Positions 22,278 through 32,038 of a DNA stretch of 32,038 bases are shown here, one piece after another (position 1 is the stretch's first letter; each line of letters begins with the position of its first letter). The notes under the pieces were generated by a model that did no database searches, had not been told where the DNA came from, and saw only the letters and a list, made by a program, of their open reading frames with translations. The translations under genes were made by a program, and so were the position numbers. Origin of the DNA: Fidelibacterota bacterium (GTDB lineage: Bacteria; Fidelibacterota; Marinisomatia; Marinisomatales; TCS55); contig JAPYOT010000016.1 of assembly GCA_029938045.1 (NCBI GenBank), positions 1-32,038 on the forward strand, read 5' to 3'.

Positions 22278-25200
22278 CTAATCTATTTTGATTGGTGTAA
22301 ATTCCTTAAACAGGGAAAGATTCGCATCCTCAACGGCGGTCTGATATTTCGGCCATTCTTCTTTATAGAACTGATTGACTTGGTCGAGGACCTTTTCCGT
22401 TTCTGCTTCAGAATAATCAAGCAGGTAATCGTGACTTTTATTAGGTCCGGTCAAGTTACTGTATAAATACCTGTTGAGGGCGCTAATCTTGCCACTGAGT
22501 ATTTGGGGACTTCTCACGATACCCTGGAGTCCTTTTTTGTTCACGATCAGTTCTTCCAAAACCTTTAAACTGTCCGTCATGGATTTCCCATTTTTTTGGA
22601 GTGTCTTATGGGATTTATTCTTTTTTACATCCAGCATTTTATTCACAGATTCAACGATCTTTTTGGATTTCCGAATGCGATCCATGGCTTTTGTAACTAA
22701 CGCTGTAATTTCCATTTGCCGTTCATAGATGGGCTGGAGTTGTTCCAGATTACGCGTATTAATACCCACCCGCGGATCTAAAATAACATTCACAACTTGG
22801 GTGGTTGTATCCGTCCCATGGGATAAACGGATGGTGTATTCACCGGGTAAAACGGGAGGACCACCCGGTTCTTTCGCATCTGGCTTGGTTGGTTTAGGTG
22901 CATTGGGAGATCGAACACCTTTGCGCCGTAATCCCCAATAAACGCGGTTTATGCCCGCCTCCACATTGTGTTTCACTGTACGAATCACTTTCCCGTCTTC
23001 ATCAAGGACTTCCATGGTTACCTTCTCTTTTTTGTCTTCTGGTTTCCCATTTTTATCCCCTTTATCTTTTTTTGGTTTTTCTTTCTTTTTCTTATCTGAA
23101 TTAAATACAAAAGTCAGCATGGCGCCACGACCACGGTTTTTCCCTGTAAAAATGGCGTTGGCTTCAAACCGTGTACCCGACGCTTGGCGATTAATTGCCA
23201 GAACTGCAGTGGGTGGTTCGAAAAAATGGAGCCGTTTTTTCATCAAATCTTTTTTGGTAGAAGCCATTTCCCGCAACGGGCGAATATCATCCAGGATGTA
23301 AGCTGCCCGTCCGAATGTGCCAATTACAAGGTCATGTTCTCTTGGATGAATTTTTAAATCCATGGTAGAAACTGTGGGATAGCCACTGGTCCATTTTGTC
23401 CAGGTTTTGGCATTATTCAGGGTGACGTAAAGACCATACTCTGTTCCTAAGAATTGGAGATTTGGCTCAATTGGATCTTGAACAAAACTCAATGCGTGAC
23501 CCCATACCTTTTCTTCGTCTGCAATGGACTTCCATGATTTCCCATAATTATTTGTTTTGAAAACATAGGGTTTCCAATCATTACGGCGGTAATTGTTTAT
23601 GACTATTACAGCCTCAGCTGGATCATATTTGGATGCATTAATTTGCGTTACCCAACTGCCCACAGGTGCACCATGGATTTTCTTTGCGACATTTTTCCAA
23701 GTTTTTCCGCGATCAGTAGTGAGTTGCACATTACCATCATCCGTACCCACCCAGATTACGTTGCGATCCAATGAACTCGGTTCAATGGCAAGAATGGTGG
23801 TATAGTTTTCTGCGCCGGTAGCATCAAAAGTTAATCCGCCACTTTCGTGCTGTTTTTGCTTTTCCGGATCATTGGTGGTGAGGTCCGGAGAAAGAATATC
23901 CCAATTGTTTCCGCGATCGGTACTGTAATGAACATATTGACTGCCAAAGAATATGGCATCTTCATCAAATGGATCCTGAGCAATAGCCGCATTCCAATTA
24001 AAACGGAGATATTCTCCATTGGGGTGTACGGGACGAATCATTTGTTGATGTCCTGTAACCAAGTCGTATCTGCTCACATTTCCCTGTTGACTCATGGCAT
24101 AACCAAAACGGGAATTCCCGGGGTGAGGCACTACATCAAATCCATCGCCAAACGCCAACTCATCCCAATATGAATTTCGGATACCGCCAGAGCGCCAGAT
24201 ATAAGCAGGGCCGCGCCAGGAGCCATTATCCTGCATGCCGCCATAGACGTTGTAAGGCCAATTCATGTCATAATTAATATGGTAAAACTGGGCCACAGGG
24301 AGGTTTTCCACAAACCGCCACGTTTTACCCCGATCCATTGAAAAATTCAATCCACCGTCATTCCCTTCAATTATGAAATTGGGATTGGTGGGATGACCCC
24401 AGAATGCATGGTGGTCCGGATGAACCCCATTTGCTCCGTAAGCCGTCATGAGGGAACCAAACGTTTTACCCCCATCATTGGAAACAGTCACATAGGTATG
24501 GAGATTATAAATGCGATTTTCATTCACCGGATCTACATAGATTTCCGCATAGTAAAAAGGGCGGCCGCCAATATTTTTATCGGATACTTTTTTCCACTTA
24601 AAACCGCCATCCTCTGATTTATATAGTGCATTTTTTTTGGATTCAATCAGGGCATAAATCAGTTTCGGATTGCTCGGTGCAATAGCAATGCCCATGCGGC
24701 CAAAATCACCTTTGGGCAGGCCATCTTTATCCGTTCGTTTTTTCCATGTTTTACCCCCATCAAATGTGATGTGCATCCCTGAACTTGGACCACCGGATTT
24801 AAAGAACCATGGCCACCGTCTAAACTGCCACATATTGGCAATCAGTTTGTCTGGGTTACGGGGATCCATGACCAATTCACCAATCCCGGTTTTTTCGTCA
24901 ATGTAGAGAATCTTTTCCCAAGAGTCGCCACCATCAGATGTTTTATACACACCTCGGTGTTCACTCTCGCCCCATGCAGCACCTTGGGCACCCACATATA
25001 CTTCATCGGGATTGTGGGGATTAATCAAAACACGGTGAATATTCCGCGTTTCACCCAACCCTTTGAAATCCCAAGAGTTACCGCCATCAATACTTTTATA
25101 CACACCAAAACCAGCCGATTGACTGTTCCGCGGATTGCCTTCGCCAGTACCCACCCAGATCACGTCTGGATTGGTGGGATCAACCGTTACGTCCCCAATG

Positions 25201-25457
25201 GAAGCGGCTTTTTGATCATCAAAAATGGGTTCCCATTTGATGCCGCCACTTTCGGATTTCCAAAGGCCGCCAGAGGCGGTACCGACATAAATGACATCCG
25301 TATTGGAAAGGACAACATCAATGGCTGTTACACGGCCGCTCATACCGGCGGGACCAATACTCCGGGCTTTCATTCCTTTAAATTTTTTCATATCCAGTCC
25401 ATCGGCAGAAAGGATGGCAGATATCATTACTAGGATAAATAGGATATTGCGTTTCAT
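22278..25457 (-). CDS. Large secreted BNR / VPS10-like beta-propeller protein
   Basis: The 1059-residue protein (ATG 25457) has a signal peptide (MKRNILFILVMISAILS). About ten BNR/Asp-box repeats of the form S-x-D-x-G-x-x-W are seen, such as SIDGGNSW, TSDGGDSW, TFDGGKTW, SEDGGFKW, SMDRGKTW, STDRGNNW and TTDRGKTW, which build one or two propellers like those of sialidase-like and VPS10/sortilin proteins. No sialidase catalytic arginine triad could be identified. A lysine-rich linker (about residues 790-815) separates the propellers from an Ig-like segment (PGEYTIRLSHGTDTTTQVVN) and a C-terminal helical tail. Relatives in Bacteroidetes are called glycosyl hydrolases without firm proof. An upstream ATG at 25502 would overlap the protease gene by 32 bases; the chosen start leaves 13 bases. 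Confidence 0.85.
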   Translation of the reverse strand: MKRNILFILVMISAILSADGLDMKKFKGMKARSIGPAGMSGRVTAIDVVLSNTDVIYVGTASGGLWKSESGGIKWEPIFDDQKAASIGDVTVDPTNPDVIWVGTGEGNPRNSQSAGFGVYKSIDGGNSWDFKGLGETRNIHRVLINPHNPDEVYVGAQGAAWGESEHRGVYKTSDGGDSWEKILYIDEKTGIGELVMDPRNPDKLIANMWQFRRWPWFFKSGGPSSGMHITFDGGKTWKKRTDKDGLPKGDFGRMGIAIAPSNPKLIYALIESKKNALYKSEDGGFKWKKVSDKNIGGRPFYYAEIYVDPVNENRIYNLHTYVTVSNDGGKTFGSLMTAYGANGVHPDHHAFWGHPTNPNFIIEGNDGGLNFSMDRGKTWRFVENLPVAQFYHINYDMNWPYNVYGGMQDNGSWRGPAYIWRSGGIRNSYWDELAFGDGFDVVPHPGNSRFGYAMSQQGNVSRYDLVTGHQQMIRPVHPNGEYLRFNWNAAIAQDPFDEDAIFFGSQYVHYSTDRGNNWDILSPDLTTNDPEKQKQHESGGLTFDATGAENYTTILAIEPSSLDRNVIWVGTDDGNVQLTTDRGKTWKNVAKKIHGAPVGSWVTQINASKYDPAEAVIVINNYRRNDWKPYVFKTNNYGKSWKSIADEEKVWGHALSFVQDPIEPNLQFLGTEYGLYVTLNNAKTWTKWTSGYPTVSTMDLKIHPREHDLVIGTFGRAAYILDDIRPLREMASTKKDLMKKRLHFFEPPTAVLAINRQASGTRFEANAIFTGKNRGRGAMLTFVFNSDKKKKEKPKKDKGDKNGKPEDKKEKVTMEVLDEDGKVIRTVKHNVEAGINRVYWGLRRKGVRSPNAPKPTKPDAKEPGGPPVLPGEYTIRLSHGTDTTTQVVNVILDPRVGINTRNLEQLQPIYERQMEITALVTKAMDRIRKSKKIVESVNKMLDVKKNKSHKTLQKNGKSMTDSLKVLEELIVNKKGLQGIVRSPQILSGKISALNRYLYSNLTGPNKSHDYLLDYSEAETEKVLDQVNQFYKEEWPKYQTAVEDANLSLFKEFTPIKID

Positions 25458-25470
25458 TTTTACTCGCTTA

Positions 25471-27915
25471 TTAATTAGATTTATTGTTGAATGGGTTTTC
25501 AAATGTACATCCGAATGTGGTGCCGATTGGCGATCCTGGCGGTGCTTTTGGTACCTTTATGGGTTCAAATTCTTCTGGTTCATCCAGGAAGGTTTTGATT
25601 CGATGTTGAAGCATATTGAAATGGGCTTTATCTCGGGATGATTTTCCACGGTTACGGGACAATTTAATTGATAATGAATTCACTTGCGCCATGGCGATCG
25701 ATTGGGCAGCGGGGGATGTATTTTTATTTATAGTCAAACTCATGAGATGATCGAGGATGACAAAATCAACATTCCGTTTTATTTCACCCTCAAGTCCTGC
25801 AGGGGCCGATTGTAATATTGTTTCTTTAAGTATTTCGTTTAAAACTTTTTCCAATCCCGGTTGTTTGGTATTTCGAGCGTTGTATTCAACCAAACGTGTT
25901 GCCCGGGCAGGATGAAAGATCATTCGACAAGTCAGGTTGGCGGCAGTTTCCGCAAGGCTGACGCCATCAAATGTAACACTGGTTCTGGAATTAAAAGATT
26001 CACGGGTTCGGCCTCGTCCAGAAGCACGGGGAGGAATAAGTTGAAGAAGTTCCTCTCTTAAAGTTAATGCATCCGGTTGTAGTGTACCGATGAGCCCATC
26101 CAAGGCTTCCATTTGGAATTTTGGGTCGAGGAATTCTGTTACCATTTGGCCGTCACCTCGAAGGGCATAAGTGAAATTCAATCCACCCACCACTTTGGCT
26201 GCACCTTCAATTTGAAACCGATGGAGAAAATATATAGGAACCAGTACATCCTCTATATCACTATAGGGTTGACCCATTCTAATATTATTCTCACCAAAAT
26301 TATCCAGTGCTACTTTACGGACTGCCATTAAATTTTGTAACTCGGATACTGGATCTTTTCCATTATCCCAAAGGTGAGCAGTGGGATGGGCAGAACCCAG
26401 TGGCCTTGCATCCTGATCTGTAATAAATGTGTATCCGCGACGGATACCATCTTGAATGATTTCTTCTAATGCTTCCTTTTCGTTGGTTCCTTTTGGGAAA
26501 TCCTGATAGCCGTAGGCGACAGATATTTTATCCCACTCCCCGATGCCCACACCATAGGCATCCTGCCATTCAATTTCCCCCTTTTGATTAACAGTAACTT
26601 TTGGGTGAGGGTAATCCATTACGGACGCACGATCAACCGTACTGGCGATATAGTTATGAGCCAATCCAATGGTATGTCCAATTTCATGTGCCACGAGTTG
26701 GCGGACTCTTGCCAAAGCTAATTCACGCATATAATCGGGGACTGCAGTGCCATTATCATAAGGTGCCAATAATCCGGTGGCAATGAGGTAATCCTGGCGC
26801 AATCTGAGTGAACCAAGAGATACGTTTCCCTTCAAAATTTCTCCTGTACGCGGATCGTCAACGGAACTGCCATAGGACCATCCTCGAGTGGCACGATGGA
26901 CCCAGTGAACCATATTGTATCGGACGTCCATGGGGTGCGCATCTTTCGGCAGTACTTTCATCTGGAAAGCATTTTTATATCCTGCCGCTTCAAAGGCTTG
27001 ATTCCACCAACCACCGCTTTCCAGCATGGCTGATTTCACCGGTTCCGGGACGCCGGGATCTATATAATAAATAATAGGTTCAACCGCTTCACTCGTTCTG
27101 GCATTGGGGTTTTTCTTGTGTAATCGATGACGCGTTATCACCCGTTTGTAGATGGATTCGTCCAATGGTGCAGCATAATCTTGAAAGGACATGGGGTAAT
27201 ATCCCGCTCGGGGATCATGATTTCTTGGCGTATAATTGTCATCTGGAAGTTCAACAAATGAATGATGGAGTCTCATCGTTATGGCGATTGCCGTCGGTGT
27301 GGTTTGTCTAACATATTTTCCCGGATTCGACCCTGTGTAGGTCATGAGAGCTTCCACTTCTGTATTGTTCGGAAAATTCATGGTAGCCGGGAGGTGAATG
27401 GCTGATCGACTTTTATCCACCTTGTAATTCCCCATGTTTTGATTTTTTAATCGAGAAACAATACCATGGGCATCATTCAGAAAAAAGTCTGTGGCATCAA
27501 CTAAAACACGGTTGTCCTCTTCTGCTTCTACTGTAAACCCCCAAAGGGTAGATTTTGCAAACCCATCCTCAACCGACTTTTTTTCACGGGGATCATCAGT
27601 CACAGCCCGGTAATAATAATTGGGCTGAATCATTAACACTTTCGGGCCGACTCGATGAAAATATACAATTCTTCCATTGCCCAACTGACCCCGGTCCAGG
27701 CCCACATCATTGGAACCCATCCCTGCCATGAGTGAATTCACATATAGGAATTCTTCATTAAAATCGGAAATTTCCAGCCATAGTTTTCCCGTTTCATTTT
27801 CCCAATAAAGATTTAAATATCCATCCATTTTATCCATGGATTTTGTTTTATCAGCGATTGATTCAGCGAAACCAAGTCCGATCAACATTAGAAAAAGGAT
27901 ATATTTTTTCACCAT
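25471..27915 (-). CDS. Secreted zinc metalloprotease, metzincin type (DUF5117/DUF4953 family)
   Basis: The 814-residue protein has a signal peptide (residues 4-17). The catalytic motif HEIGHTIGLAHN (His410, Glu411, His414, His420) is the metzincin HExxHxxGxxH, followed by a Met-turn SVMDYP (Met433). The long N-terminal region with GLDRGQLGN and RVGPKVLMIQPNY and the helical C terminus match the DUF5117/DUF4953 family common in Bacteroidetes relatives. It should degrade proteins in the periplasm or outside the cell. GAGGAGG (27918-27924) lies only two bases before the ATG but five before a GTG second codon at 27912-27910, so either may initiate. It is 67 bases downstream of the helicase gene and directly upstream of the propeller gene. 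Confidence 0.92.
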   Translation of the reverse strand: MVKKYILFLMLIGLGFAESIADKTKSMDKMDGYLNLYWENETGKLWLEISDFNEEFLYVNSLMAGMGSNDVGLDRGQLGNGRIVYFHRVGPKVLMIQPNYYYRAVTDDPREKKSVEDGFAKSTLWGFTVEAEEDNRVLVDATDFFLNDAHGIVSRLKNQNMGNYKVDKSRSAIHLPATMNFPNNTEVEALMTYTGSNPGKYVRQTTPTAIAITMRLHHSFVELPDDNYTPRNHDPRAGYYPMSFQDYAAPLDESIYKRVITRHRLHKKNPNARTSEAVEPIIYYIDPGVPEPVKSAMLESGGWWNQAFEAAGYKNAFQMKVLPKDAHPMDVRYNMVHWVHRATRGWSYGSSVDDPRTGEILKGNVSLGSLRLRQDYLIATGLLAPYDNGTAVPDYMRELALARVRQLVAHEIGHTIGLAHNYIASTVDRASVMDYPHPKVTVNQKGEIEWQDAYGVGIGEWDKISVAYGYQDFPKGTNEKEALEEIIQDGIRRGYTFITDQDARPLGSAHPTAHLWDNGKDPVSELQNLMAVRKVALDNFGENNIRMGQPYSDIEDVLVPIYFLHRFQIEGAAKVVGGLNFTYALRGDGQMVTEFLDPKFQMEALDGLIGTLQPDALTLREELLQLIPPRASGRGRTRESFNSRTSVTFDGVSLAETAANLTCRMIFHPARATRLVEYNARNTKQPGLEKVLNEILKETILQSAPAGLEGEIKRNVDFVILDHLMSLTINKNTSPAAQSIAMAQVNSLSIKLSRNRGKSSRDKAHFNMLQHRIKTFLDEPEEFEPIKVPKAPPGSPIGTTFGCTFENPFNNKSN

Positions 27916-31060: not shown

Positions 31061-31078
31061 AAATATTGATCAATATTT
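31061..31078. promoter_or_regulatory. Perfect 18-bp palindrome between the helicase-nuclease and lipoprotein genes
   Basis: AAATATTGATCAATATTT is a perfect inverted repeat with a TTGATCAA core, roughly midway in the 161-base divergent gap (69 bases from the helicase start and 74 from the lipoprotein start). This position suits an operator for a dimeric regulator acting on one or both genes. No matching regulator is encoded here. Confidence 0.35.
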
Positions 31079-31152
31079 TAACTAATACATAGCTTAGTGC
31101 ATCTAATAGAGCAAATGAAACATTCGAAAATAACAAAAAAGGGGATAAGAAA

Positions 31153-32038
31153 ATGAAAAAAATAATCTTACCCATTTCAACATTTTTATTTTTGGCCATT
31201 GGATGTGATAATCCATTGCTGGATAATGCTGTTGATTTGGATAGTCAGGAACTTCAAGGCTTTTCGTCTGAATTGGCTTCAGACTTAGGTCTCAGTAAGT
31301 CATCCACAAAGAGTTTAAACGATGTTCTAAATCGCCATGGACGCGGGGGGAAACATCGTGAACCAGGCTTCTTATGGAAAATCGCTGGCGAACTGGCTGT
31401 TACGTTAACCGATGAAGAAAAAGCACGTCTGTTTGAAAAGATGGACGAAAAAGATATTCCATTATTTGGTGATAACAAAAAACGGGGCGCCAAATCCAAA
31501 GGTGGTAAAAAAGGAAAAAATGACTTTGGCGGTATCGTCCGGGTATTAACCGATGACCAAAAAGTAACCTTTAAAGCGATCATGGTCGCATATAAAGAAA
31601 AATTCAAAGTAATTCATGAACAGGTAAAAGATGGCTCTCTTTCTAAAGAAGATGCCGGTGTCGAAATGAAAGCTCTTCGTGAAGCAATGGAAGCAGAAAT
31701 TGATGCCTTGCTCACTGATGAACAAAAAGCACAACTTGAACAGAATAAAGCGGATCGGAAAGCGGATCGGGAAGCTTACCATGACTCTTCTAAAGCGGTT
31801 ATGGTTGAGGTATTAGGTTTAAGTGCGGATCAAGTCTCATTGTTTGACGCGATTAATTCTGAAGCGCGAGATGCCGCTAAAGCTTTATTCGAGCAAGCAA
31901 AGAATGGTGACTTGGATCGTGAATCACTCCGTGCGGCCCTAAAGAATTTATTCACTGAAAAGAACGATGAAATGGAAGCGCTCTTTAATGATGACCAACT
32001 TGAAATCATTAAAATCCATAAAGCTCTTGAATTACGGA
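31153..32038 (+). CDS. Lipoprotein with tandem LTxxQ (Spy/CpxP-like) helical repeats, partial at right edge
   Basis: An ORF opens at ATG 31153 and stays open to the window end (295 codons, no stop). AGGGG lies eight to ten bases before the start. The N terminus is a lipoprotein signal (MKKIILPISTFLFLAIGC, Cys18). The mature part is highly charged and helical. A half repeat starts at Leu85 (LTDEEKARLFEKM), then a basic GGKKGK linker. Two full units start at Leu132 (LTDDQKVTF) and Leu223 (LSADQVSLF), 91 residues apart. They align without gaps over about 70 residues with 22 identities, both ending in a second LTDEQ/FNDDQ motif. LTxxQ pairs mark periplasmic chaperone/sensor proteins such as Spy and CpxP. 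The function here is inferred from this likeness only. Confidence 0.85.
   Translation, partial: MKKIILPISTFLFLAIGCDNPLLDNAVDLDSQELQGFSSELASDLGLSKSSTKSLNDVLNRHGRGGKHREPGFLWKIAGELAVTLTDEEKARLFEKMDEKDIPLFGDNKKRGAKSKGGKKGKNDFGGIVRVLTDDQKVTFKAIMVAYKEKFKVIHEQVKDGSLSKEDAGVEMKALREAMEAEIDALLTDEQKAQLEQNKADRKADREAYHDSSKAVMVEVLGLSADQVSLFDAINSEARDAAKALFEQAKNGDLDRESLRAALKNLFTEKNDEMEALFNDDQLEIIKIHKALELR

Follow-up and report, generated by a model that had tools for sequence, protein, structure and literature searches.

The last gene of the window (the whole stretch of DNA analysed, 32038 bp) runs off the end of the sequence while still open, and it raises two questions: how many Spy/CpxP-like units does the encoded lipoprotein contain, and what would a lipid-anchored chain of such units do? 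Spy and CpxP are single-unit, ATP-independent periplasmic chaperones, and Spy is soluble and homodimeric. The features of the gene and of the DNA just upstream are as follows.

31077..31106, + strand: ECF-type promoter-like site TTTAACT-N17-ATCTAA, 46 bases before the ATG; common to the lipoprotein 2 and sigma genes in relatives
31141..31144, + strand: probable ribosome-binding stretch (gggg, in aaaaggggataag), judged from the sequence
31153..32037, + strand: lipoprotein ORF; ATG start, 295 aa present, open at the right edge
31153..31206, + strand: signal peptide and lipobox LAIGC; lipidated Cys18, acidic +2 residue Asp19
31264..31467, + strand: unit 1, shorter and degenerate (residues 38-105); LSKSS at 47, LTDEE at 85, invariant Trp75; model helices between 32 and 99
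31468..31524, + strand: Lys/Gly-rich linker (residues 106-124); pLDDT under 50 at 109-123
31525..31797, + strand: unit 2 (residues 125-215); LTDDQ 132-136, LTDEQ 187-191; four helices like those of CpxP/Spy
31798..32037, + strand: unit 3 (residues 216-295); LSADQ 223-227, FNDDQ 278-282

From residue 125 on, the protein repeats itself at an offset of 91 residues, where 23/80 residues are identical; among the offsets scanned (60-129) this was the sole one above the 17% reporting line. Smith-Waterman alignment of unit 2 with unit 3 scored 85 with no gap, against a mean of 31.2 (sd 5.6, max 62) for 5000 shuffles, and profile comparison with hhalign joined them over 65 ungapped columns (E 1.9e-14, probability 98.3), against a best E of 0.011 among 100 column-shuffled controls. 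The two ungapped 91-residue units proposed in the initial annotation are thus borne out. Each contains two L-T-x-x-Q motifs (starting at 132 and 187, and at 223 and 278), the last of which starts with Phe and the second residues of which vary; the pairing of motifs had been noticed earlier and stands, and their spacing, earlier put at about 56 residues, measures 55 in both units. Five [LF][TSN]xx[QE] motifs are present in the protein, a number equalled in 2/5000 shuffles, and the motif Gln is invariant among the homologues having the position (Q136 46/46, Q191 45/45, Q227 44/44 and Q282 44/44). The half unit described ahead of the full ones is real, yet degenerate: its second motif region matched the unit 2 profile with a probability of 47 over 18 columns, its first motif gave no convincing profile match to unit 3 (probability 1.6), and the places corresponding to the motif Gln are occupied by Ser in 40/46 and by Glu in 39/46 homologues, with Gln in 6/46 at each.

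The lipid anchor, likewise claimed from the start, is well founded. Signal peptide, lipobox and Cys, the marks of a bacterial lipoprotein, are all present; Cys is found at the lipobox position in 45/45 homologues having that position, and Asp or Glu follows at +2 in 44/44. In E. coli, an acidic +2 residue favours retention at the inner membrane; in Bacteroidetes-type bacteria it possibly favours export to the surface. The lipoprotein may be tethered to the inner membrane or exported to the surface, either being compatible with its acidic +2 residue.

The right edge of the window is the end of the assembly and not a cut, as contig C5 is 32038 bp long and the window covers all of it. The frame is indeed open to that edge, as first reported, and its extension to a stop codon, which had been suggested as a check, stops with the contig. 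A homologue search of 61 genomes (the window's own and 60 relatives) gave matches in 27, own genome included, and 46 homologous ORFs, the window ORF among them, were gathered from the fetched stretches. The relatives carrying them are mostly Candidatus Neomarinimicrobiota or Marinimicrobia, two of them named TCS55, and the more distant ones are Rhodothermia, Rhodothermales or Bacteroidetes. Forty-three homologues are complete, all of 310-369 aa, and the remaining 3/46 are the window ORF and two contig-end fragments; the closest relative, of 324 aa, is 86% identical in an alignment covering residues 1-295. The number of units is constant throughout the homologue alignment, and length differences are confined to linker and tail. 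Because the 43 complete relatives span only 310-369 aa, the number of units is settled as three, and about 15-30 C-terminal residues of a Lys/Gly-rich tail are predicted to be missing from the window ORF. A long array of units is ruled out on the same grounds (43/43 complete relatives), and the earlier suggestion of an array whose full length had been cut off does not hold, the relatives having one degenerate and two full units followed by a short tail.

The Pfam LTXXQ model (PF07813) scored the whole ORF at 24.8 bits, marginally above its cut-off of 24.3, and unit 2 alone at 23.8 bits, under the cut-off; when the own genome was searched with this model at E<=0.001, the window ORF was not reported (0/1). 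At E<=0.01, LTXXQ matched 15/27 full-length relatives and 30/39 unit-2 sequences. Against the PDB, the full-length profile ranked Spy first, weakly (E 0.036). The profile search with one unit that had been proposed gave a firmer answer: Spy provided the four best hits of unit 2 (E 2.3e-5, 1.2e-4, 1.3e-4 and 4.9e-4), followed by CpxP, fifth at 0.17 and again at 0.3 further down the list, a VirG-like protein (7.2) and ZraP (7.3), and both motifs lie in register with those of Spy in two printed unit-2 profile alignments. The Spy equivalog model (NCBIfam NF007769) scored 12.8 bits, where 174 are required. Together with a structural alignment that lists CpxP, CnrX and Spy, the Pfam and PDB profile matches uphold the assignment to Spy/CpxP-like LTXXQ units. 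Judged by its sequence, the protein is a lipobox-bearing chain in which one degenerate helical unit of the LTXXQ (Spy/CpxP/CnrX) type is followed by two full ones.

Structure prediction, the remaining check that had been suggested, was run with an alignment of 39 rows, from which nine ORFs (fragments, frameshifted ORFs and single- or two-unit relatives) and rows containing unread bases were excluded. AlphaFold modelled the window protein (39 sequences; pLDDT 84.1, pTM 0.72) as hinged helices that start at the motifs, one continuous helix (189-221) running from unit 2 into unit 3, and unit 2 alone as four helices (pLDDT 83.3). VIA-align placed CpxP first for the unit 2 model (Z 8.5, 86 residues, rmsd 2.9), with a second CpxP at 8.0, CnrX at 7.7 and Spy at 7.5 (74 residues, 24% identity). 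The Z-scores are tied with those of unrelated helical hairpins (mostly 55-60 residues covered), which reach 7-8 against unit 2 and place the CpxP and Spy scores within the chance range for helical models; for this reason the structural alignment supports a Spy/CpxP fold for unit 2 and is no proof of it. Foldseek gave no match against the PDB at E<=0.001 for the full-length or the unit 2 model, its best for unit 2 being the VirG-like protein 5io8 (E 0.36, probability 0.92), and fold search with the full-length model returned no significant match, only ABC-transporter and coiled-coil noise, with Spy and CpxP absent among the matches listed.

The gene order around homologues suggests how such a protein might be controlled. 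In Candidatus Neomarinimicrobiota relatives, the lipoprotein gene is followed on its 3' side by a paralogue (lipoprotein 2), an ECF sigma factor, a protein with one transmembrane (TM) stretch and a single-unit Spy/CnrX-like secreted protein. Among the 18 window-type loci counted (L058-L074 and L078), the paralogue is present in 18, the sigma factor in 17, the one-TM protein in 16 and the Spy/CnrX-like protein in 15, and every shortfall falls at a contig end (L059, L071, L072). The sigma factor matches TIGR02937 at 104 bits, against a cut-off of 42.9 (E 6.3e-30). The one-TM protein, of about 126 aa, has a single hydrophobic stretch from residue 39-42 in 16/16 and a CnrY-like plan; Pfam offered no useful family for it and so lends no support to its identity, which is likely that of an anti-sigma factor. 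The secreted protein (about 165-169 aa; for L070, simple ORF calling gave 116 aa) matched Metal_resist in 11/16 and LTXXQ in 5/16 cases at E<=0.05, all weakly, and has invariant L49/Q53 and L126/Q130. Identification of this protein through the PDB was tried and discarded, the best hits (E 0.25) being unrelated and a VirG-like protein following at 0.3. Genomes G015, G043 and G055, which belong to other lineages, have the sigma/one-TM/secreted trio beside a helicase of the kind that neighbours the window gene, but apart from the lipoprotein gene.

In the own genome, 2.7 kb of DNA of a relative's downstream cluster was not found (0/1), and the Spy/CnrX-like protein was found in 7/8 genomes searched, the sole miss being the own genome (G000). 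The absence of the cluster from the own genome's contigs is likely due to the contig break (the genome is 91% complete), and we infer the downstream cluster of the window gene from its relatives. On the 5' side, the divergent neighbour of the lipoprotein gene encodes a UvrD helicase with a PD-(D/E)XK domain, and a Met-zincin is encoded further out. This Met-zincin (DUF4953/DUF5117) adjoins a large BNR-like repeat protein, by likeness seen by eye (window 25471-27915 and 22278-25502, both on the - strand), and in many relatives, too, genes for the two kinds of protein are found next to the lipoprotein cluster. The cluster itself varies in places: lipoprotein 2 of L074 (7336-8442) has an extra C-terminal tail like a Kazal-type protease inhibitor (Pfam Kazal_1, 1.4e-5), and that of L078 (7069-8175) ends in a similar tail; one subgroup has a small ORF of 85-95 aa between the two lipoprotein genes (L068:1431-1718, L070:7107-7391, L073:7083-7340 and L074:7079-7336); and L061 (8257-8643) has an additional ORF, belonging to the one-TM cluster, with a start like that of the secreted protein, a partial duplicate lying between both genes. 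A literature search on the phylum together with sigma factors or envelope stress, which was not exhaustive, showed no study of such a regulon among the first 10 of 1251 papers.

A promoter-like motif joins these genes. Typical features of ECF sigma factors, in the part of PMC8103513 available to us, are AAC at -35, CGT at -10, a co-transcribed anti-sigma factor and autoregulation. The pattern TTAAC-N17..23-TC[TGA]AA, read off the same regions in which it was first tested and sought within 200 bases upstream, is present before 16/16 lipoprotein-1 genes (window included), 9/15 lipoprotein-2 genes (one of the nine sites, in L066, being doubtful by position) and 14/14 sigma genes. The total, 39/45 regions, compares with a mean of 0.64 and a maximum of 4 in shuffles (300 rounds) and with 1/128 for other genes of the same loci. 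Because the pattern came from the regions first tested, the lipoprotein genes of distant relatives served as a further test: a slightly relaxed pattern was found before 11/12 of them, including 10/11 that do not adjoin a sigma gene, several of these being closely related, so that perhaps five lineages are represented. Sigma genes of four other genomes had it in 4/4 cases, lipoprotein genes of Rhodothermia/Bacteroidetes in 0/3, and control genes of the distant loci in 3/117, or 1/115 once one lipoprotein and one sigma gene are set aside. For the sigma gene of L145 the start used is a few bases off, with no effect on the motif. The window gene thus shares with the sigma genes a promoter of the AAC/-35, CGT/-10 type at the level of sequence, with a -10 that reads ATCTAA and not CGTC, and the sigma factor would be the one to recognise it.

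As proof of a regulon, a genome-wide scan was rejected, since the reversed control pattern is nearly as common as the pattern itself (15 against 19 sites in five genomes). The only other exact site in the own genome (contig C34, 20399-20427) precedes a gene for a single-unit LTxxQ-type secreted protein (L146:1966 onward), which adjoins an MsrB-like gene and has orthologous promoter sites in G011 and G004. The pattern also lies upstream of TonB-receptor-like outer-membrane proteins (L148:5040-7469 and L149:1228-3747), possible further regulon members. It was the pattern itself that led to the sites upstream of this single-unit LTxxQ gene and of the outer-membrane genes, and they do not count as independent support.

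We favour a role in envelope stress because of the conserved ECF-sigma cluster and the shared promoter, and we think it fairly probable that the protein is an ECF sigma-controlled, membrane-tethered, multi-unit periplasmic holdase. The lipoprotein and the neighbouring paralogue would belong to the regulon of the ECF sigma factor encoded just downstream in the lineage. Misfolded envelope protein would be sensed by the one-TM protein, the presumed anti-sigma factor, with or without the Spy/CnrX-like secreted protein; the released sigma factor would use AAC...GTC promoters to transcribe the two lipoprotein genes and the operon in which it is itself encoded; the membrane-tethered lipoproteins would hold unfolded clients on the Spy-like units that they carry in tandem; and signalling would be damped again once the stress subsides. 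More tentatively, units 2 and 3 might form an intramolecular equivalent of the Spy homodimer, tethered to a membrane by lipid and flexible linker, and the lineage might run an ECF-sigma stress loop of its own whose sensor partner and effectors all consist of the same Spy-type unit, namely three cluster proteins and the single-unit LTxxQ protein encoded elsewhere behind the same promoter.

The same units could instead act as a sensor or adaptor and not as a holdase, binding the one-TM or the Spy/CnrX-like protein and reporting the state of the envelope, like CpxP on CpxA or NlpE feeding Cpx. The gene lies beside the sigma gene in 17/18 window-type loci, and in the part of PMC6737893 available to us CpxP damps, and the lipoprotein NlpE feeds, Cpx signalling. 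Yet other families of the phylum have the lipoprotein gene at a distance from the trio, so the trio seems functional with no lipoprotein nearby, and a regulon member outside the core operon would look more effector-like; we regard a sensor as rather unlikely. A tandem protein that senses or scavenges metal in the manner of CnrX or ZraP would fit the Metal_resist matches (4/27 full sequences and 6/39 unit-2 sequences), the place of CnrX among the structural matches of unit 2 and a nearest gene plan that is CnrX-CnrY-CnrH (available part of PMC4598750), but His, Met and Cys are scarce in units 2 and 3 and form no conserved cluster in the alignments inspected, and the residues that are invariant are the motif Gln and Leu. 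This makes a metal-binding role very improbable.

Very improbable, in our judgement, is a structural coiled-coil lipoprotein, a spacer or tether in which the LTxxQ likeness would reflect only convergence at helix N-caps. Structural matches tied with unrelated hairpins and a full-length model with no significant fold match are what such a protein might give, but the unit-2 profile puts Spy above all other PDB sequences with the motifs in register, the four motif Gln are invariant, and the straight coiled coil that the initial annotation had named as the outcome that would count against it is not what the model predicts, which is hinged helices broken at the motifs and not one long coil. A lipidated chain with this fixed set of three units, paired with a paralogue and apparently under an ECF sigma factor of its own, would show how envelope protein quality control is laid out in a largely uncultured marine phylum. 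It also provides a naturally occurring, covalently linked counterpart of the Spy dimer in which to test whether the cradle needs two chains and, in its promoter motif, a testable regulon.

Our data place the lipoprotein near several known systems. It shares with Spy of E. coli (PDB 3o39, 3oeo) the paired LTxxQ motifs, and Spy is the best PDB profile match of unit 2 (Z 7.5 in the structural alignment); unlike Spy, which is single-unit and Cpx-regulated, the window protein joins three units in one lipidated chain behind an ECF-type promoter. CpxP (PDB 3qzc, 3itf), the top structural match of unit 2, is one soluble unit that damps a histidine kinase, whereas no CpxA/CpxR is encoded beside the window-type gene. 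According to the part of PMC6737893 at hand, both Spy and CpxP are chaperones under Cpx control, and CpxP is a damper as well, acting on the histidine kinase.

Tandem LTXXQ units are not unique to the window-type lipoproteins, since two-unit LTXXQ proteins with similar motifs occur in L089 (a Gemmatimonas phototrophica record) and L090 (a Latescibacterota record); these differ in having about 250 aa, no lipobox that we could see and no unit 1. The two genes (L089:5866-6627 and L090:5866-6636) are very alike by eye despite the differing record names, which suggests misbinning or transfer.

In CnrYXH of Cupriavidus metallidurans, an ECF sigma factor, a small anti-sigma factor and a Spy-like periplasmic protein are encoded together. 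CnrX, which binds Ni/Co, switches the anti-sigma factor CnrY and thereby frees CnrH (PMC4598750, available part). This plan matches the downstream trio of the relatives, for which it serves as the model, with the differences that the trio has no shown metal site and that two tandem-unit lipoproteins precede it. A literature search that covered few subscription journals gave no description of tandem Spy lipoproteins among the papers listed. The units and the control logic are thus of known kinds; what is new is the lipidated three-unit chain, its pairing with a paralogue and its ECF-type promoter.
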